The position numbers and the translations under genes were made by a program. A stretch of 24,270 nucleotides of DNA from a virus. The stretch lies in IMG/VR virus record IMGVR_UViG_3300032224_000202, positions 1 through 24,270 of that record; one strand, 5' to 3'. The notes beneath the pieces were generated by a model that was not told where the DNA came from, ran no database searches, and saw nothing but the letters and a program-made list of their open reading frames with translations. Every line of letters starts with the position of its first letter. Position 1 is the first letter of the stretch. Of the stretch, positions 1-18,870 are shown one piece after another.

Positions 1-175
1 AAATAGCGTGGAAGGTAGTTTCAGCTGGTTCGATTAGTTTTTCGGCATTTGTATACCAATCTATCAGGAATTCCTTCCTAGCCTTACGTTCTGCCCCATT
101 CATCCTACCCCACTTCTTTTCGTTTGGAGGAGGTTGGGCTGCAAGAACTCCGTCAATATCATAGGAAACTATCAT
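1..175 (-). CDS. HAD-superfamily phosphatase-like protein (partial, N-terminus only)
   Basis: Reading the minus strand from an ATG at 175 gives an open frame of 58 residues running off the left edge. It begins MIVSYDIDGVLAAQ. The DxDGVLA signature (Asp6 and Asp8) after a short hydrophobic strand is the catalytic motif I of HAD-superfamily phosphatases: the first Asp is the phospho-acceptor and the second the acid/base. The start overlaps the stop of the upstream gene (ATGA), so the two are probably translationally coupled. HAD proteins in T4-like phages include nucleotidases and the 3'-phosphatase domain of polynucleotide kinase. Which applies here cannot be decided because the cap and motifs II-IV lie outside the window. 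Its position behind a base hydroxylase and a glycosyltransferase makes a role in nucleotide or sugar-phosphate metabolism possible, but this is inference. Confidence 0.75.
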   Translation of the reverse strand, partial: MIVSYDIDGVLAAQPPPNEKKWGRMNGAERKARKEFLIDWYTNAEKLIEPAETTFHAI

Positions 176-1179
176 AGAATTAGGGGATCCACTTTACCTG
201 TCTTTTCAACAATGGCTTTCTGTTTCTCCCAAATAGCCTTACGGATCTCTTCAGAATAAGATGCAAATTTATCTAGTTCTTCTTTGGTATCAGTTGGGTA
301 GCACCAATTTAAACCCTTGTTACCTGCTGGAGCACAGACAGGAATACCAGCATAAAGAGCATGATAAGCACGACCAGTTCTCCAACCAGACTTTTTATGT
401 TTGTCATCATACACAGCTAAACAACCATGGAATGTTTGGTAGAATTTACGACGATCTCTTTGTTGTGGATTGTCAAGAATTTCCAATGCTTCATAATCTT
501 CCCACTCAGCTTCCTTACCTGCAATTTGTAAAAACCGAGAAGAAGTGAATTCCTTAAAGTATTTGGTTCTTCCATTTGGTCTGCCGATATAAACAACCTT
601 TGGAATAGAACCACCATGAAATTCAGCAAACTCCATACCAGAAGCCATTGGTAAATCAACAGTAGTTGAACCGATAGGGCATTTTAAAATCTCAGCTACC
701 TCAGTGCAGTTAGTTGCATTGGCAGCAATAGTCCAACGTGACCAATCTTCATCGGGAAGCAAATTCCATAGGAATGGAAGATCTGGATCATCGTTCAAAA
801 AGATAACACGACCCTTATGAGCCTTAATCATTTCAATAGTTTTATCCCAATACTTCTGATAGAACTGCAAGTTAGTTCCACCAAACTCAAGCATGAGAAC
901 ATCACACTCTTGATAACTGTCAAATGATTTAAATCCATCATCAGATGTAGCATCAGTTGGTTCAGATAGTGGAATGATTCTATGACCAAAGTCAAGCATG
1001 TTCTTGAATAGAGCTACACGTTTCTCTACCCAAGCACCACGAACACCATTCTCTTTATTGGTTAAACCAATCTTACCCGAAACCCTACGATAGCCAACAC
1101 GTGTTCCAGTATTGGTGGAGTTCTTTGAATAGAACCACTCCAGCAATCTTTCTTCACCTAAAAATTCATGTAATGACAT
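172..1179 (-). CDS. Putative GT-B-like glycosyltransferase
   Basis: This 335-residue protein looks like a two-domain glycosyltransferase. Residues 92-101 (CDVLMLEFGG) and 123-130 (GRVIFLND) resemble strands of an N-terminal Rossmann-like domain. A second domain appears to begin at KVVYIGRPNGR (194-204). It continues through a stretch ending GCLAVYD (252-258) to TGRAYHALYAGIPVCAP (268-284), which resembles the nucleotide-sugar-binding C-terminal region of GT-B enzymes. The start is supported by AAGGA just upstream of the ATG. It lies 8 bases after the JBP/TET-like hydroxylase gene and overlaps the HAD gene by 4 bases. Phage DNA glycosyltransferases commonly follow the enzyme that creates the hydroxymethyl group, so transfer of a sugar to hydroxymethylated DNA is the natural hypothesis. 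Donor and acceptor cannot be read from the sequence, and a role on another acceptor is possible. The family call is by pattern only. Confidence 0.6.
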   Translation of the reverse strand: MSLHEFLGEERLLEWFYSKNSTNTGTRVGYRRVSGKIGLTNKENGVRGAWVEKRVALFKNMLDFGHRIIPLSEPTDATSDDGFKSFDSYQECDVLMLEFGGTNLQFYQKYWDKTIEMIKAHKGRVIFLNDDPDLPFLWNLLPDEDWSRWTIAANATNCTEVAEILKCPIGSTTVDLPMASGMEFAEFHGGSIPKVVYIGRPNGRTKYFKEFTSSRFLQIAGKEAEWEDYEALEILDNPQQRDRRKFYQTFHGCLAVYDDKHKKSGWRTGRAYHALYAGIPVCAPAGNKGLNWCYPTDTKEELDKFASYSEEIRKAIWEKQKAIVEKTGKVDPLIL

Positions 1180-1187
1180 TATATTCC

Positions 1188-2498
1188 TTAACCGAAAAAT
1201 TCTTCCAAGCCATTCTTCAATGCTTGTGACTTTGGATGATATTTAATTAACTCGTCTTTGCCAAGTTTACTTTCAAGATATTGATACCATTCATCAGATT
1301 CCCACATACCTTCGGATACACCATTCCAAAGTGGTTTCTGGAATTTATGTTCTTTGTTTAGTCTGCGAGATTCAACAAACTCATAACGACAATTTTCATA
1401 TTCATATGAACCAAGTTCAAGCATCTTCTCACGGAAGTAAACAACCAAAGAGATACGCTCAGAACCTTCTTCACATTTAATCTCAGTATTGCCATGCATT
1501 ACTTCATGGTTATTAATCAAAAGCAAATCACCTGGACGTGGATTAACAGCAATACGATACTCAGGGCAAACAAGATATGCGCCAGTATATTTTCCATCAG
1601 GAGACAAAGTCAAAAGATTTGATAGTCCCGTATTCAAATCACCTACGTCATAGTGTGCTGCAGTTCTAAATGTTTTATTAACAGTCACTGTTGTGAATGG
1701 TGTATTTGGAACTAAGAACCTTGGATCAACTTTGTTCGCTGCAGCCATCTGTGCTGAATAACGCTGAGGAAGAAATTGTTTAAATCCTTCAGCCAAGTGT
1801 TGCAGGAAAGGATAAGACATAGCAAACTTTTCAGGATTCCTTTGAGTGTATGAAGTAGCACGACCATAAGGAATACGTGGATAACGATCAAACCATCCAG
1901 CGATACCAGAGTATACAGAGTTAGCGTAAGTAGTTGCGCAGATTAGTTTATCAGCAACATACTTGGCTTCTTTCTTTTGTTCAGGAATTGATAGATCTTT
2001 AACTCGGTTGACCCAATCTTCAAATACAAACTTATCTTTCTTAACACGATCGATTGACCAAACATTATTGCGATTAGATGGTGATGGTGGTTTACCAACA
2101 TGACGTGCACGAATTTCTGCGACAGGATCTCCGTCCAAACTGTTCTTTGGATCTAGGAAGTGTTCTACCATGTCGTACTCATACTCAGTAACCCATTCAC
2201 GATTACCCAACTTCTCACCACGTGGACCAGCTGCAGCTCCACGATTTTGTGTTTCAGTTGCTGCTTCACGAAGACCTGCATACGCTTGGTCTTGTTGTTC
2301 TTGAGTAAAGAAGTTCTTACGAAACTTCAATACGATTCTTTCTTCACTTCCAGTCAATTCAGGTGATCCTGGAATTTCTGGCATGTAAACATCACAGTCT
2401 TCATCAACAAGAAAATCAAAGTGACTCTCATCAACAAACTGACCCATAAGGTGTTTACAATCAAATTTTTGTTTAGCAATAATAACTTTTACTGTCAT
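1188..2498 (-). CDS. JBP/TET-family 2-oxoglutarate/Fe(II) DNA base hydroxylase
   Basis: The protein has 436 residues and a C-terminal-half dioxygenase core at about 264-356. TVNKTFRTAAHYDVGDL gives the HxD iron motif (His282, Asp284). PRPGDLLLINNHEVMHGNTE gives the distal iron ligand His335. SERISLVVYF gives Arg348, placed to bind 2-oxoglutarate. This arrangement, with GDLNTGLSNLLTL and the GAYLVCPEY strand, resembles the oxygenase domain of trypanosome J-binding proteins and the TET/JBP family, which hydroxylate thymine or 5-methylcytosine in DNA. Residues 1-260 are not recognised and could bind DNA. The last residues, GLEEFFG, resemble the clamp-binding tail of the polymerase in this window. 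The start has AGGAGA overlapping the gp41 stop codon. It sits between helicase gp41 and a glycosyltransferase, consistent with post-replicative base hypermodification. The family is fairly secure; the substrate base is unknown. Confidence 0.85.
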   Translation of the reverse strand: MTVKVIIAKQKFDCKHLMGQFVDESHFDFLVDEDCDVYMPEIPGSPELTGSEERIVLKFRKNFFTQEQQDQAYAGLREAATETQNRGAAAGPRGEKLGNREWVTEYEYDMVEHFLDPKNSLDGDPVAEIRARHVGKPPSPSNRNNVWSIDRVKKDKFVFEDWVNRVKDLSIPEQKKEAKYVADKLICATTYANSVYSGIAGWFDRYPRIPYGRATSYTQRNPEKFAMSYPFLQHLAEGFKQFLPQRYSAQMAAANKVDPRFLVPNTPFTTVTVNKTFRTAAHYDVGDLNTGLSNLLTLSPDGKYTGAYLVCPEYRIAVNPRPGDLLLINNHEVMHGNTEIKCEEGSERISLVVYFREKMLELGSYEYENCRYEFVESRRLNKEHKFQKPLWNGVSEGMWESDEWYQYLESKLGKDELIKYHPKSQALKNGLEEFFG

Positions 2499-2507
2499 AA
2501 TTTTCTC

Positions 2508-3905
2508 CTAGAACTTAAATCCACTAAACTGCTCTTCTTTATGTATTCGTTTTCCAAATTCACTTTTATCAAATAATGGTTTATCATCATCTTTGGTTCC
2601 AGAATCCATCAAGTTTTCTTGAGCAGATAGTTCAACATCATATAATTTCATCTTGGCTCTATCAATACCAATAACAAATCTCTTATAATATCCTGGATCA
2701 TTGTAACGATTCTTCAACTGTTTAACAATAATCTGGTTCAATCCTTCCAGTTCTTCATTACTAATTAAAGCAAACATAAAGTCAGCTGTAGCTGGCAAAC
2801 CAAATGACTCAGACGTATCTTCAAGACCTGGATCTGAATTTGTGAAACCCGATCGAGTTGTTTGAGTTGCTGAAATAATTGGAACATTATGTTCAACTGC
2901 AAGACCACGAAGTTCTTCAGCAATACTCTTGATATATGTATAAGAGTTTACACCATGACTCATCTTCATTCTTTGACTTGCACAAATATTCAAATAGTCA
3001 ATCATAATAATATCAGGAGTAAACTCACGCTTCATCTTTAATTCTTCAAGTAAAGCACGGAAGTGTCCTGCGTGGGCAGAAGCAGTAGGATATTCTTTGA
3101 CCACCAACTTACCTGTAGTCTTGGAAGCAACCTTACCAATACGTGTATCAAAGATATCCTTATCAACTACTTTCAATTCATCCATGGTTAGGTTCAATAA
3201 GTTCGCATCAATACGTTCAGCGATACGCTCTTCAGCCATCTCCATGGTAATGTATAAAACATTCTTACCTTGCATCAAAGCACCAGCAGCAACGTGACAC
3301 ATAAACAAAGATTTACCAACCCCAGTTCCTGCCAGTGCAATGTTTAGAGTTTTCTTACTGAGTCCACCTTTGGTGATTTTGTTGAACATGTCCAAGTCGA
3401 AAGGAATCTTCTCTTCCACCCTGTGATAAAAATCAAAGCGAGCATCACTGTCCTCGATATAGTCATGACCGACATGATTATCAAAGCAAACACCAAGTGC
3501 ATCAGACAGAATAGAAGGAATCGCATCTTTCTGATGAACCTTGTCATTACCTTCAATAATTTTGATTGATTGTAGGATTGCATTATAAACTGCCTTGTCT
3601 TTACAAAACTTCTCTGTTTCAGAAAGTAACCACTCGTCATTTGTTTCTGTCTTGGTTAAATCCGCAGCAAACTTTTGATACTCTGGAACTTCTTTATCAG
3701 TTAGTCCGCTAATGTTACCAATCTCAATTGATAGGATTTCTTGCGTTGCTGGCTTGTTATACTTTTCAAAAAAATCTAAAAGTATCTTTACTGCGGTTAA
3801 TTCTTTTCTATCGCTAAAATATTCTTTCTTCAGATGAGGAACTACCTTACGGCAATATTCTTCATTGTGAATCAGGTTCGCTAGGATCGCCTGTTCTATT
3901 CTCAT
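2508..3905 (-). CDS. 41: DnaB-like replicative helicase, T4 gp41-like
   Basis: This is the hexameric 5'-3' helicase of the phage replisome, which unwinds the fork and works with primase. From the ATG at 3905 it has 465 residues, close to T4 gp41 (475). An N-terminal helical domain with MRIEQAILANLI is followed by the RecA-like core. This carries Walker A GTGVGKS (193-199), ITMEMAEERIAERIDANLL downstream, and Walker B DIIMIDYLN (298-306). GTG codons upstream extend the frame, but the ATG is preferred because AGGTGG lies 5 bases before it and the homologue begins similarly. The gene overlaps the 3' end of the gp40-like gene by 44 bases and follows uvsX in the T4 order uvsX-40-41. Its stop codon overlaps the ribosome site of the base hydroxylase gene. 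Confidence 0.95.
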   Translation of the reverse strand: MRIEQAILANLIHNEEYCRKVVPHLKKEYFSDRKELTAVKILLDFFEKYNKPATQEILSIEIGNISGLTDKEVPEYQKFAADLTKTETNDEWLLSETEKFCKDKAVYNAILQSIKIIEGNDKVHQKDAIPSILSDALGVCFDNHVGHDYIEDSDARFDFYHRVEEKIPFDLDMFNKITKGGLSKKTLNIALAGTGVGKSLFMCHVAAGALMQGKNVLYITMEMAEERIAERIDANLLNLTMDELKVVDKDIFDTRIGKVASKTTGKLVVKEYPTASAHAGHFRALLEELKMKREFTPDIIMIDYLNICASQRMKMSHGVNSYTYIKSIAEELRGLAVEHNVPIISATQTTRSGFTNSDPGLEDTSESFGLPATADFMFALISNEELEGLNQIIVKQLKNRYNDPGYYKRFVIGIDRAKMKLYDVELSAQENLMDSGTKDDDKPLFDKSEFGKRIHKEEQFSGFKF

Positions 3906-4203
3906 CAACACCACCTGTGTACGTTAAATTGTTTTTTGCTATACCTTCGTGTAGAAGTTCTTGAAGAATGTCTCCAATATATTTCTCGAAAGGTTTTGTA
4001 TCGGTAAGGACTTTATTATTGTAGTCTAGAATCTCATAATCAAATTTGATATGCAAAGATGACTCTTCTTCATTTTCTTCAAACGAAACCTTACCGTATT
4101 CATAAATTATACCATCAAATGGACTTTCTGTCAACTTTATCGCATCATGTCCATTGTTGCGATTTTCTACAACAACATATTTGAATAAGTTATTCTTCGT
4201 CAT
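3862..4203 (-). CDS. 40: Head vertex assembly chaperone, T4 gp40-like
   Basis: This 113-residue protein is placed exactly where T4 carries gene 40, between uvsX and 41. T4 gp40 assists assembly of the portal vertex at the membrane. The body reads as a small acidic alpha/beta protein with IIYEYGKVSFEE and LHIKFDYEILDY, patterns I associate with the head vertex assembly chaperone family of T4-like phages. The C-terminus is polar (DENRTGDPSEPDSQ). The chosen ATG at 4203 overlaps the uvsX stop by 14 bases. An upstream extension to 4260 would lie wholly inside uvsX and encodes a basic tail, so it is rejected. No strong Shine-Dalgarno is visible, suggesting translational coupling to uvsX. The identification rests mainly on position, size and motif memory. 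Confidence 0.72.
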   Translation of the reverse strand: MTKNNLFKYVVVENRNNGHDAIKLTESPFDGIIYEYGKVSFEENEEESSLHIKFDYEILDYNNKVLTDTKPFEKYIGDILQELLHEGIAKNNLTYTGGVDENRTGDPSEPDSQ

Positions 4204-5560: not shown

Positions 5561-6115
5561 TTATTTTGGATTCTTTTTATTGTGAGGAACATCAAATACA
5601 AAAGTAATCCTAACCTCTTCTCCAACATTCTCTGTTCCATGCAATAATTTATTATTGAACCACAACAGAGTTCCTGGTTCTACTATGTATTCTTCATCGC
5701 CAACGAAGTATTTGTATCTTCCTGCAATAGAAAGATGATAGCGATCTCGAGTTTGATAGTAGCTACCCACGTCAATATGTTTGCCAACAAATCCACCAAC
5801 AGGTAGTGACAAGAAACCACAGCGATCGTGTTTGTGGAAATGACGTTTCATAAAACTAACAATTTCTGTGTGTCTGTCATACGCAGGTGTCTTTACAGAA
5901 AGTTCTGAATCGCCTACATATTCACCTTCTTTGGCAATCGCACCCATTACTAATTGCAATACACCAGCCTCAAGAACTGGGAAACCAAAATCTTTGTGGA
6001 CGCTAGATGTTCCTTCGATTGTTTTCTCAGCACCCCAATCAGCTTTATATTGTTTTAGCTGAGCAAGAATCTTTGATACATTAATCCCTGTTCGAATGAC
6101 TTTGATGTTATCCAA
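5561..6115 (-). CDS. Aspartyl/asparaginyl beta-hydroxylase-like 2OG-Fe(II) oxygenase
   Basis: The protein has 184 residues with a C-terminal double-stranded beta-helix fold. Visible motifs are GFVGKHIDVGSYYQTRDRYH, giving HxD iron ligands His113 and Asp115, the distal ligand in LLWFNNKLLHGTENVG (His159), and EEVRITFVFDV (Arg169), suited to binding 2-oxoglutarate. The spacing and the YHLSI and KYFVGDEEYIVEPG segments fit the aspartyl/asparaginyl beta-hydroxylase family. In phages the target of these enzymes is unknown; it could be a protein or a modified nucleotide. It overlaps the end of DNA polymerase by 8 bases and is the last gene before the promoter at 5530-5558, so it is co-transcribed with the polymerase. 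It is distinct from both the JBP/TET-like and prolyl-4-hydroxylase-like proteins in the window. Confidence 0.8.
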   Translation of the reverse strand: MDNIKVIRTGINVSKILAQLKQYKADWGAEKTIEGTSSVHKDFGFPVLEAGVLQLVMGAIAKEGEYVGDSELSVKTPAYDRHTEIVSFMKRHFHKHDRCGFLSLPVGGFVGKHIDVGSYYQTRDRYHLSIAGRYKYFVGDEEYIVEPGTLLWFNNKLLHGTENVGEEVRITFVFDVPHNKKNPK

Positions 6116-8594
6116 AGAAATCCTCCAGCGATGCTTTATGTTCTACGTTCCATCCCAAAGGTTTAATAACAATTTGCACTGCATCCAAGAATGTCTTTTC
6201 AAACTGCAAATCATAATCAATAAAATCGTGCAACTTAAATTCTTTGGGCAATGCTTGAGGGAATGCAATCACATCTTCATTAAATGGGTTTGGTTTCTTG
6301 ACATAAACAAATTTAATCTTCTCACCTTCTTTGATGGGTTCATATTTCTTCTCAAGACCCAGACGTTTAATATGGTGATTGTAAAGTAGTGAACCTCTAA
6401 CATGAATAGGTGTTCCCTTTGTGTAAATGGGAGAACCTGAATATTGTTTAAGATTATTCACACCACGTGGGAAAGCAATATCCTCAAGTGGTAGTTGATT
6501 AAACTCTTCACGGAATTTCATTATGTAACTTTGTAAGTTTGATTCGCTACCTTTAAGGATAACCTCAATCGAATCACGCAACTTGTCACGGATAACTGCA
6601 GGAGTGGAAGATTTAACCATCTCAAGACCCATAACCTTTAACTTCGGTTGCGCATACTGAACACCCTCAGAGTTATGCACGTTGAGAATATATCGTTTCT
6701 TGGCAGTCCAGATTCCCTTATCGGCAAGAACCTCACGCTTCATAATCATCTTTTGTGAATATGCATTCATGTAGTCTGCCAACTTTTGATACGTCTGATC
6801 AATGAATGGTTGGAAGATATCTTCACAAACTTTATCCATATACTTGATCTTCTGTTCGTCAGTCTTACCTTCGCAAGTTCTTTCAACAAGTTCTTCAAGT
6901 GTTAGGTAGATAGAATCTGTATCGATGGCAATAACAAAGTCTTTACCTTCTGTCTTTAATGCTTTATTCATGTAGCGATTAAACTCATTAGCCATCCAAC
7001 GAATAGACAGCTGACCAGAAGTTGTGATACCTTCAGCCATACGAATATCAAAGTAACGGAAATACTGATTACCCAATGCACCATAAGCTGAGTTCAATGC
7101 AATCTTCATTGCCATCTGCAAGTTATTAAGTCGGCTGATATCTTTGAGAAGTGATTTCTTGGACTTATCGTTTTGATATTCCTGCTCACACTTCAACATC
7201 TGCTTTTTGAATTTACTTCTGTCGGTATACATCTTCTCCATCAACTCAGGCATGAACCCTTTGATATCTTTGCGATATGTCCAGCCATTGGCAGTCATGG
7301 CAAGATCTCTACGCTTGCAGTAGTCGGTGTCTACTTCTTGCTTAAGAAGTTTCTCTACGTTGCATGGGATCTTTTCTGAAGTTAATGTTTCAGGAGAGAT
7401 GTTATACTGCATAATCAAGTGAGGATACAGGGAGTTCAAGTCAAAGGAAGCTACCCACTTATGCAAACCAATCAACGGATCTTTAACAAAAGCACCTTCA
7501 AATGCTTCAGATTTAGCAGAGCCAGTTTTGGTAGGAATAGCAATCTTCTTCTTACGCAAGTGATTGTAAATGATAGCATCCCACATGCGAACCTGACTAA
7601 ACACATCCTCATAGTTAATCTTGGCATTGTATGCCATGGTAAGACACAACTCAATCAGTCGCATCTTATCTTCGAGTTTGTCAACCAACTCAACGTCGTG
7701 AATGTTATACTCAACAAACTTCTGCCAGTGAGATGTGTAGAATTCCTTGAATGAATCACCTGGATTTTCTTTCTTGGCATCAGCAAGTTCTTCACTAGCA
7801 ATATAATCCAAACGATATGATTCTTGTTTCTGATAAGTAAACTTCTTATACAGATCTAGGTAGTCCAACTGAGATATACCTTGCACATCATAAGATATTT
7901 CTTCCTTACCCATAACAAAGATCTTACGTTCATTGATAATACCCCATGGAGAAAACTTAGCTGCGATTGATTCACCAAGTTCATTGGTAATGCGTTTAAG
8001 TAGATAAGGAATATCAAAGAAGCCAGTGTTCCATCCTGTGATAACATCAGGATAGTTCTGTTGCCACCAAATCATAAACTCTTTGAGCATATGTTGTTCA
8101 TTGTTACAATAAACGTAGGTAACATCTTTGCGTGTGTTTTCAAACGATCGTGTGCCAAAGGTGGCGATCTGTTTGCTTTGACTATCTTTAATGGTGATGA
8201 GTAATACTTCTTCGTTGGCTCGCCTTATGTCAGGGAAACCTTCTTCAGTTGCAGTCTCAATATCAATCGTGAAGACTTTGATCTTGTCCATATCAAAACG
8301 AATATCGCTTTCATATGTGTCACTAATATATTGATGAACATAATTGGTATTGCCATAAACAGAAAAGCCAGAAACATCTTTATATCGATCCACGAAGTCA
8401 CGTGTTTCTTTAATTGTTCCTGGCTTAATCTCGTCAACAACTTGTCCGTCAAGTGTTCTCCACGCACTTTCTTTATTTGATGTTACATAAAGAGTTGGGT
8501 AGAAATCTATCTTTCGGCTAAAAGGTCTATCGTTCTCATAACCCCTTACTAACATTTTATTACCGTAGGGAAATACATGAGTATAAAATTGCAT
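6108..8594 (-). CDS. 43: Family B DNA polymerase, T4 gp43-like
   Basis: This is the replicative polymerase with 3'-5' proofreading, 828 residues (T4 gp43 has 898). Exonuclease motifs: Exo I FTIDIETA (Asp111, Glu113), Exo II GWNTGFFDIPYL (187-198) and Exo III YNIHD (296-300). Polymerase motifs: A SFDLNSLYPHL (383-393), B KIALNSAYGALGN (497-509) and C AIDTDSIYL (556-564). All catalytic residues are present, and no intron or intein interrupts the gene. The C-terminus KASLEDFFG matches the known clamp-binding tail type of T4 gp43. The start forms TAATG with the upstream exonuclease stop. A consensus sigma-70 promoter lies inside that upstream gene at 8759-8787. In T4, RegA represses translation of several early mRNAs; whether it does so here is not visible. 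Confidence 0.97.
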   Translation of the reverse strand: MQFYTHVFPYGNKMLVRGYENDRPFSRKIDFYPTLYVTSNKESAWRTLDGQVVDEIKPGTIKETRDFVDRYKDVSGFSVYGNTNYVHQYISDTYESDIRFDMDKIKVFTIDIETATEEGFPDIRRANEEVLLITIKDSQSKQIATFGTRSFENTRKDVTYVYCNNEQHMLKEFMIWWQQNYPDVITGWNTGFFDIPYLLKRITNELGESIAAKFSPWGIINERKIFVMGKEEISYDVQGISQLDYLDLYKKFTYQKQESYRLDYIASEELADAKKENPGDSFKEFYTSHWQKFVEYNIHDVELVDKLEDKMRLIELCLTMAYNAKINYEDVFSQVRMWDAIIYNHLRKKKIAIPTKTGSAKSEAFEGAFVKDPLIGLHKWVASFDLNSLYPHLIMQYNISPETLTSEKIPCNVEKLLKQEVDTDYCKRRDLAMTANGWTYRKDIKGFMPELMEKMYTDRSKFKKQMLKCEQEYQNDKSKKSLLKDISRLNNLQMAMKIALNSAYGALGNQYFRYFDIRMAEGITTSGQLSIRWMANEFNRYMNKALKTEGKDFVIAIDTDSIYLTLEELVERTCEGKTDEQKIKYMDKVCEDIFQPFIDQTYQKLADYMNAYSQKMIMKREVLADKGIWTAKKRYILNVHNSEGVQYAQPKLKVMGLEMVKSSTPAVIRDKLRDSIEVILKGSESNLQSYIMKFREEFNQLPLEDIAFPRGVNNLKQYSGSPIYTKGTPIHVRGSLLYNHHIKRLGLEKKYEPIKEGEKIKFVYVKKPNPFNEDVIAFPQALPKEFKLHDFIDYDLQFEKTFLDAVQIVIKPLGWNVEHKASLEDFFG

Positions 8595-9175: not shown

Positions 9176-9721
9176 TTATGACAGATGACTAAACCATCCT
9201 GTTGTTACATACTTTTCTTTAGTGTGAGAAATTTCACCACGATGTGTAAATGTCCAATCTGTTGGCCAAATTAAAGTCATTCCCTTTATAGCAGGTGATG
9301 TGAAATTTTGGTGTTTGAATTCTGTACCACCATCATCAACGTCATTTAGATATGTCATAAAAACTAAGTGACGAGCACTAATTCTTCCATGTCCACCATG
9401 TCGTTCACAATGCCACATTTTATATCCACCACTAATAGGATACCATTGAACACCAATAGGTTCAGTTATAGTCCAACGAGATTTACCACCTGCTTCTGGA
9501 TATTCTTTAACATATTTTTGTACTGCAATAACAAGTTCTTTATAATATCTAGAAGTAACATTATCTTTTAAATCTAAAGGAATGTCTATCGATTCTTTAA
9601 CATCTGGACTAAACAAAGACTTCTGTCCAGCTCTTCTCTCTGTGTGATAGTCAATCAAGTCATCACAAAGAGAGATATCTTCAAGAAAATATTTTCCAAT
9701 AAATTGAGGATACTCCAACAT
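9176..9721 (-). CDS. Prolyl-4-hydroxylase-like 2OG-Fe(II) oxygenase with HxE variant motif
   Basis: The protein has 181 residues. The C-terminal half has the order expected for prolyl-4-hydroxylase-type dioxygenases: an iron motif at YKMWHCER, the strand HLVFMTYLNDVDDGGTEF (118-135), the basic-turn region KGMTLIWPTDWTFTHRG (147-162) with distal His160, and KEKYVTTGW with Lys170 as the probable 2-oxoglutarate binder. The first iron motif reads His104-Cys-Glu106, H-x-E rather than the usual H-x-D. I recall HxE in phage proteins of this type, but it deserves checking. The target is unknown; proteins or nucleic acids are possible. It forms TAATG with the upstream unknown gene and precedes the DexA-like gene by 9 bases. 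Confidence 0.8.
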   Translation of the reverse strand: MLEYPQFIGKYFLEDISLCDDLIDYHTERRAGQKSLFSPDVKESIDIPLDLKDNVTSRYYKELVIAVQKYVKEYPEAGGKSRWTITEPIGVQWYPISGGYKMWHCERHGGHGRISARHLVFMTYLNDVDDGGTEFKHQNFTSPAIKGMTLIWPTDWTFTHRGEISHTKEKYVTTGWFSHLS

Positions 9722-18216: not shown

Positions 18217-18870
18217 TTATTCAAATGTTGAATCTGCTTCTACTGCTACATAATAAACCAAATCACCATTACCTTTGAAGCGAGAGATCTTCTTGCTAGA
18301 AATAGAAACATCATAATCGCCAGGAAGCATCTTCAAGTTCTCAACCTTCAAATTAACTTTGAATGTTTTGTCAGTTGTGCCGACAGACTCATCAAATGTA
18401 TTTGATGTTGCATTAGACTTGTTACCTACTTGAACAGTAATGGTAGAACCATTACCAACGATAGATACGTCTTCACTACTCAATACTCCAGCTGTCTTAC
18501 GAATGAAGTCCAATTGTTCTGCTGTTACTTTGAAGTTTACTTCTGCTTCAGGGAATGTAATAGCCTTGGATGGAGCAGTCAATACTTCTGGAGCAGCAGC
18601 ATAATATTTAATACTACGTCCGCCAGATTTGATTGTTACAAACTTCTCGCTGAATTCCAAATCAGGATCTTCGAACACAGACATCGCACCTAGAAACTCA
18701 TTGAGATCATAGATACCAAAGTCAGGGAATGTTTCTGCCACAGTGGCATCAGCCATTACGTTCTTTTGACCAGAGATCGTGGCGAGTTTGTTGCCAGACT
18801 TCAAAAGAAGATTACTGTTAATACCAGCAAAGTTCTTAATTACTGCTACTGTTTCTTTACTTAATTTCAT
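18217..18870 (-). CDS. 45: Sliding clamp, T4 gp45-like
   Basis: The trimeric ring tethers the polymerase to DNA and, in T4, activates late transcription. The 217-residue protein (T4 gp45 228) starts MKLSKETVAVIKNFAGINSN, close to T4, and has IYDLNEFLGAMSVF and VNLKVENLKMLPGDYDVSIS, both conserved in gp45. The C-terminal strand YYVAVEADSTFE matches the T4 ending. GGAG in the end of the preceding gene precedes the ATG, and the stop codon TAA is directly adjacent. Partners include the polymerase (clamp-binding tail LEDFFG) and, potentially, the base hydroxylase ending LEEFFG. Confidence 0.95.
   Translation of the reverse strand: MKLSKETVAVIKNFAGINSNLLLKSGNKLATISGQKNVMADATVAETFPDFGIYDLNEFLGAMSVFEDPDLEFSEKFVTIKSGGRSIKYYAAAPEVLTAPSKAITFPEAEVNFKVTAEQLDFIRKTAGVLSSEDVSIVGNGSTITVQVGNKSNATSNTFDESVGTTDKTFKVNLKVENLKMLPGDYDVSISSKKISRFKGNGDLVYYVAVEADSTFE

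Follow-up and report, generated by a model that had tools for sequence, protein, structure and literature searches.

Why would an enzyme predicted to modify phage DNA end like the polymerase that copies it? This question is raised by the virus record IMGVR_UViG_3300032224_000202 (G000), whose whole 24,270 bases form the window analysed here and set the bounds of what we say about the source phage. On its minus strand it encodes a putative DNA base hydroxylase of 436 amino acids (Table 1) that ends ...KSQALKNGLEEFFG followed by the stop codon, the last residues being KNGLEEFFG. The first-pass annotation had pointed out that the hydroxylase end GLEEFFG resembles the end SLEDFFG of the DNA polymerase gp43, had taken this tail to be unique in the window and had proposed that the hydroxylase docks on the sliding clamp gp45, so that modification follows the replication fork. 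Both ends are borne out by the translated open reading frames (ORFs), and GLEEFFG with its stop codon spans 1188-1211, within the annotated 1188-1215. Among the 248 ORFs of at least 30 amino acids, only three match the tail pattern [LIM]xxF[FLMYW]x?-stop, namely gp43, the hydroxylase and a 40-amino-acid ORF that is probably no gene, so that the uniqueness of the tail holds as well. The tail is confirmed as a real feature, and it is more general than had been seen: the same type of tail ends three unrelated families of DNA-modifying enzymes, the TET hydroxylases, the TET-Associated Glycosyltransferases (TAGTs) and the D12 methyltransferases. The answer that we consider quite likely is that the hydroxylase uses a modular clamp-binding tail to dock on gp45 and oxidises newly replicated DNA, an arrangement that would be shared in T4-like phages.

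The designation as a base hydroxylase is sound at the family level because the protein matches the Pfam family Tet_JBP (PF12851) with an E-value of 2.6e-24. It is assigned to PHROG 24024, and its structure model is confident (mean predicted local distance difference test score, pLDDT, of 90.5), with human TET2 as the best match of a Foldseek search in the PDB (E 1.2e-10, template-modelling score 0.48). H282, D284, H335 and R348 are invariant in an alignment of 51 sequences and form an HxD...H...R pattern, whose residues we take, by analogy with the superfamily, to bind iron and 2-oxoglutarate. The tail itself is poorly fixed in the model, the last block having a mean pLDDT of 53.

We then asked how the tail behaves among homologues, which were gathered from IMG/VR and from named phages. 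The sampling is not biased towards the tail since no search pattern contained it. The 187 loci yielded 179 complete ORFs, which together with the window formed 61 clusters at 90% identity, and 60 after one with a broken frame (L208) was dropped; L058, L071, L280 and L253 were left out as incomplete, L260, L277, L288 and L290 gave no hydroxylase match, and a search of genome contigs for relatives found none. In 51 of the 60 clusters the hydroxylase ends with [LIM]xxFFx?. Upstream of this end, the distance from the conserved HP to the leucine varies from 5 to 11 residues, and the linker columns -10 to -5 have entropies of 2.5-3.4 bits per column. The L, F and F columns, which are conditioned by the selecting pattern, have 0.14, 0 and 0 bits; in an alignment unselected for the tail, F434 and F435 are still at least 90% conserved. 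At the invariant positions, leucine is encoded by six different codons and phenylalanine by either of its two, and it is therefore the residues of the tail, not the DNA, that are kept. Altogether, the hydroxylase has the features expected of a gp45 client motif: a gp43-like hydrophobic and acidic C-terminal peptide carried by a divergent linker of variable length.

The tail also follows the replication proteins of the phage. The first-pass annotation expected it to be kept in homologues from gp45-bearing phages, and this is what we found: it is present in 51 of the 55 clusters from T4-like contexts and in none of the five from other contexts (Fisher p 2.3e-5, kinship not corrected). A first version of this table, in which four tailed clusters had no T4 marker, read 47/4/4/5 (T4-like with and without tail, others with and without; p 0.0023); in a wider comparison all four turned out to share proteins with T4-like genomes, giving 51/4/0/5, the T4-like assignment of L255 and L256 resting on few shared proteins. 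The tailless clusters from other contexts are those of S-CBWM1, HTVC112P, P12024L, the L215/L216 pair and the L273 group. No match to phrog_262 (gp43) or phrog_223 (gp45) was found in their records; for the first three these are complete genomes, whereas the other records are fragmentary. The window itself encodes gp45, and the tail is missing from homologues in phages where gp43 and gp45 were not found. Furthermore, where the gp43 tail deviates, the hydroxylase tail deviates too, and the two thus vary together. The Cr30 ends are ADLSSLFD for gp43 and GATLF for the hydroxylase. The gp45 of G016 shares only 31% identity with that of the window; in this phage gp43 terminates in QVSLF and a neighbouring glycosyltransferase in SVSLF, and instead of an FF end the hydroxylase has a degenerate SIEEFE, beyond which the protein is extended. 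The corresponding ends in DLP6 are ATLDSFFA for gp43 and ATLGDFFV for the hydroxylase, and the gp55 proteins of four relatives of the window have LD[DN]FI[EG] near their end.

Tails of this kind exceed the chance expectation and fall on few kinds of protein. Among 3,385 ORFs of seven phage records, 21 tails were found against 0.63 expected by chance, and these belong to six gp43, six hydroxylases, five baseplate-hub proteins, one glycosyltransferase, one DNA adenine methyltransferase and two short ORFs. An unbiased census of the TAGT and hydroxylase loci, whose contigs are partly duplicated, returned 39 TAGTs, 36 hydroxylases, 17 gp43, five hub-like proteins and two copies of a second TAGT-family protein. 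The idea that LxxFF is simply a common way for proteins to end is rejected by these censuses, the baseplate hub being a real exception; L105:10984-11703 and its homologues belong to this T4 baseplate-hub family (PF12322) and have the LxxFF end in T4-like phages.

The glycosyltransferases came to light in DLP6, where a 287-amino-acid protein near the hydroxylase ends SDLSSFFN and matches PF20691, the TAGT family. A scan with the family of this protein gave 47 loci, which together with the earlier ones contain 51 complete TAGT-like ORFs in 20 clusters, a few contigs being counted twice; 15 of these clusters have the LxxFF end, and two of the 20, from L204 and L206, share no more than 24-27% identity and are perhaps not TAGTs. 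The pairs in which TAGT and hydroxylase co-occur include duplicate contigs (L209/L247, L210/L248, L211/L272 and L212/L250). At a single locus, L257, the TAGT ends ATLDEFFG, the hydroxylase ASLEDFFG and gp43 VSLEDFFV. The TAGT of the L273 group is 55% identical to the tailed TAGT of L209; it is tailless, as is the hydroxylase of the same group, and the context of the group has few proteins in common with the T4-like genomes used for comparison. As for the methyltransferases, the gene that follows gp43 in C48C1 encodes a D12 adenine methyltransferase (PF02086) ending STLDAFFG. Eighty of its relatives were kept, 76 of them complete and falling into 24 clusters, of which 18 end in the strict LxxFF form and 23 in a looser one.

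Docking on gp45 is the best reading of the tail because the C-termini of T4 gp43, gp55 and gp33 bind gp45 and because T4 alpha-glucosyltransferase co-purifies with it; the sequence comparisons support this reading strongly. Indeed, T4 gp43 ends KASLDFLFG and T4 gp55 has SLDFLYE near its end. Excerpts of PMC2988020 describe C-termini of this kind as interchangeable between gp43, gp55 and gp33 in binding gp45, and the gp55 tail as sitting on a divergent linker of varying length; the same paper describes a co-crystal of the gp43 peptide with RB69 gp45. The binding of gp55 and gp33 through an LDFL motif is given in a passage of PMC9690074, and these motifs, as well as that of T4 ligase, are placed on the hydrophobic patch of gp45 in a passage of PMC7892883. 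According to PMC13216743, clamp binding of T4 alpha-glucosyltransferase is confirmed, this enzyme being recovered together with gp45, unlike beta-glucosyltransferase. We infer that the hydroxylase tail is likewise a gp45 ligand from its likeness to the tested motif, its variation with the polymerase and its conservation.

We can propose the following scheme. The hydroxylase would carry, on a flexible linker, a C-terminal motif of the T4 gp43/gp55/gp33 type, S/T/G-L-E/D-x-F-F with an optional G/A/S/V, and this motif is predicted to dock on the hydrophobic patch of the gp45 ring. The docked enzyme would oxidise bases on clamp-carrying DNA, which, if the clamps are those loaded on nascent DNA, would be newly replicated phage DNA. 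TAGTs and some D12 methyltransferases with the same tail would be tethered likewise in T4-like phages. Since three enzyme families share the tail, several modification steps could run from the trimeric clamp, their order, like the base that would be modified, being a presumed part of the proposal. These results suggest that, in these phages, DNA modification is carried out from the replication clamp. We give about even chances to a stronger version, in which gp45 is a modification tool-belt: an exchangeable clamp tag would be joined to at least three unrelated enzyme classes in T4-like phages, with oxidation and glycosylation acting in sequence on new DNA from the protomers of one clamp.

Several observations weigh against docking as the role of the tail. 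Four T4-like hydroxylase clusters (Cr30, G016, the L279 group and L289) lack the LxxFF end, and in the L279 group and L289 the adjoining glycosyltransferase keeps a tail that the hydroxylase does not have. No such tail was found on T4 Dam or on the T4 alpha- and beta-glucosyltransferases, on the TAGTs of T6 and CF1, or on the D12 methyltransferases of the cyanophages Bellamy, ACG-2014d and P-HM1, the three examined of 440 matching records. Both T6 and CF1 carry a dCMP hydroxymethylase gene, annotated as such in the CF1 record. T4 alpha-glucosyltransferase, tried as a carrier of the gp43-type tail, was rejected as its end has none; this enzyme, reportedly found bound to gp45 by Sommer et al. 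in 2004, binds gp45 without such an end, and the tail is therefore not the only route to the clamp. Finally, the LxxFF motif alone is no proof of clamp binding because the baseplate-hub protein (PF12322) also ends in this way, in five of the seven phage records.

Among the other explanations, the one that survives best concerns what docking is for. The proposal of the first-pass annotation stands as far as docking on gp45 is concerned, by virtue of the tail in T4-like clusters, its co-variation with gp43 and its absence where gp43 and gp45 were not found; the further step, from docking to a modification that keeps up with the fork, is reasonable but inferred. The tail might instead bind gp45 for one-dimensional tracking and processivity on replicated DNA, or make use of clamps left for late transcription. 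T4 gp55, as a gp45 ligand, tracks along DNA (excerpt of PMC2988020), and the authors of PMC13216743 attribute the dominance of alpha-linkages in T4 mainly to expression and not to clamp binding. Nothing in the sequence speaks against tracking, as it predicts the same tail as fork coupling does, and we regard it as a possible but less favoured alternative.

A different partner for the LxxFF end, some other phage protein or an assembly, is unlikely; its likeness to gp43 would then be convergence on a generic hydrophobic end. While the similar end of the baseplate-hub protein would fit this idea, hub ends are without the S/T-L-E/D core, and the remaining carriers of the pattern, two short ORFs excepted, are gp43 and DNA-modifying enzymes; the tail also follows gp43's own deviations and is missing where gp43 and gp45 were not found. 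Even less probable is recruitment to the host beta clamp. Some tails are shortened to xLF (ATLF in Cr30, VSLF in G016, KLDLF in L204), a form that resembles the bacterial clamp motif, but the prevalent form is like that of gp43, which has gp45 as its clamp, and the gp43 of G016 itself ends VSLF. That a C-terminus this short and acidic came to its present form by chance or drift can practically be dismissed: the seven-residue match is short, yet shuffling of the last 30 hydroxylase residues (200,000 shuffles) produces the tail pattern in 0.0255% of cases, and conservation of the tail next to a varying linker, with synonymous codons at its invariant positions, already contradicts this explanation.

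Table 1. Features of the window that bear on the hydroxylase tail.
Feature	Position	Strand	Basis or remark
TET/JBP-family 2-oxoglutarate-Fe(II) DNA base hydroxylase, 436 amino acids	1188..2498	-	Pfam, model, TET2 match, invariant residues
GLEEFFG and stop, hydroxylase C-terminal peptide, putative gp45-binding tail	1188..1211	-	conserved in 51/60 homologue clusters
Variable linker, hydroxylase residues 423-429, between conserved HP (421-422) and tail	1212..1232	-	column entropy, length variation, low pLDDT
gp43 family-B DNA polymerase, reference clamp tail	6108..8594	-	ends ...EHKASLEDFFG and stop
gp45 sliding clamp, proposed partner	18217..18870	-	PF09116 E 3e-11; T4 gp45 structure 1czd E 4e-26
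335-amino-acid protein directly downstream of hydroxylase, starts MSLHEFLG	172..1179	-	found in 8 loci including the window

The 335-amino-acid protein adjoins the hydroxylase in some relatives only. It matches no Pfam family above the cut-off and its structure model is unusable (mean pLDDT 48.6). Its start resembles the clamp motif, but is N-terminal; it is invariant in the eight loci, which says little because the whole protein is 82-91% identical to that of the window in the six relatives aligned. On the other side of the hydroxylase, a gp41-like helicase (2508-3914, minus strand) has a separate conserved end, F-x-[GD]-F-K-F, shared by almost every relative whose end is complete, the first F being Y in a few; T4 gp41 ends ANELKF. 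Two more oxygenase/cupin matches are found in the window, at 5561-6115 (Asp_Arg_Hydrox, E 6.6e-6) and 9176-9721 (2OG-FeII_Oxy_3, E 1.3e-6), both on the minus strand.

Neighbouring genes also bear on the substrate. A C5-methyltransferase (PF00145) was found in two of 20 records with hydroxylase homologues, and the substrate may thus not be 5-methylcytosine; this base, cytosine and thymine are candidates. The C5-cytosine methyltransferases of these two records (L312:1429-2601 and L313:1048-2247) directly follow gp43 and have no clamp tail. Most freshwater relatives have a gene for a class-II glutamine amidotransferase (PF13522/PF13537; L024:11320-12009, for example) whose start overlaps the stop of the hydroxylase gene; it is absent from that place in the window. 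This neighbour may point to an amidated base. Two non-T4 contigs each contain, downstream of the first hydroxylase-like match, another one (L215:12609-13358 and L216:12632-13354), with a match to an amidotransferase homologue further on. Public records annotate the TET-like hydroxylases of DLP6 (L082:11998-13344), Cr30 (L083:11998-13326) and S-CBWM1 (L085:3729-5165) as SNF2 DNA repair proteins.

When a phage alters bases that are already incorporated, it must be done before host nucleases cut. A clamp tail on an oxidase and a glycosyltransferase would be a simple and testable answer to how modification keeps pace with replication. Beside polymerase and transcription, the list of gp45 clients would then include DNA hypermodification, in a set of mostly uncultured phages, and the tail offers a sequence tag for finding more modification enzymes. 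What appears to be new here is a putative clamp motif of the gp43 type on DNA-modifying enzymes, the motif on gp43, gp55 and gp33 being already known; the open-licence literature searched contained no report of clamp tails on TET-like, TAGT or D12 enzymes, and one may exist elsewhere.

Among known systems, the T4 gp43/gp55/gp33 motif is like the hydroxylase tail in phage lineage and clamp family, gp55 also carrying its tail on a divergent linker. However, its known carriers are a polymerase and late-transcription factors, whereas a DNA base hydroxylase bears it in the present case. T4 alpha-glucosyltransferase, like the hydroxylase as we propose it, is a phage DNA-modifying enzyme associated with gp45, but it is a tailless GT-B glucosyltransferase that acts on 5-hydroxymethylcytosine (hmC) incorporated during replication. 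By their catalytic domains, the hydroxylase here belongs to the TET/JBP family (PF12851) and the tailed glycosyltransferases of relatives to the TAGT family (PF20691). Finally, the closest functional analogue is human DNMT1 with its PCNA-binding motif, a DNA-modifying enzyme that acts on new DNA from a sliding clamp, as described in a passage of PMC9690074; it differs in that enzyme, motif and clamp lineage are unrelated, and in serving cellular methylation rather than phage hypermodification.
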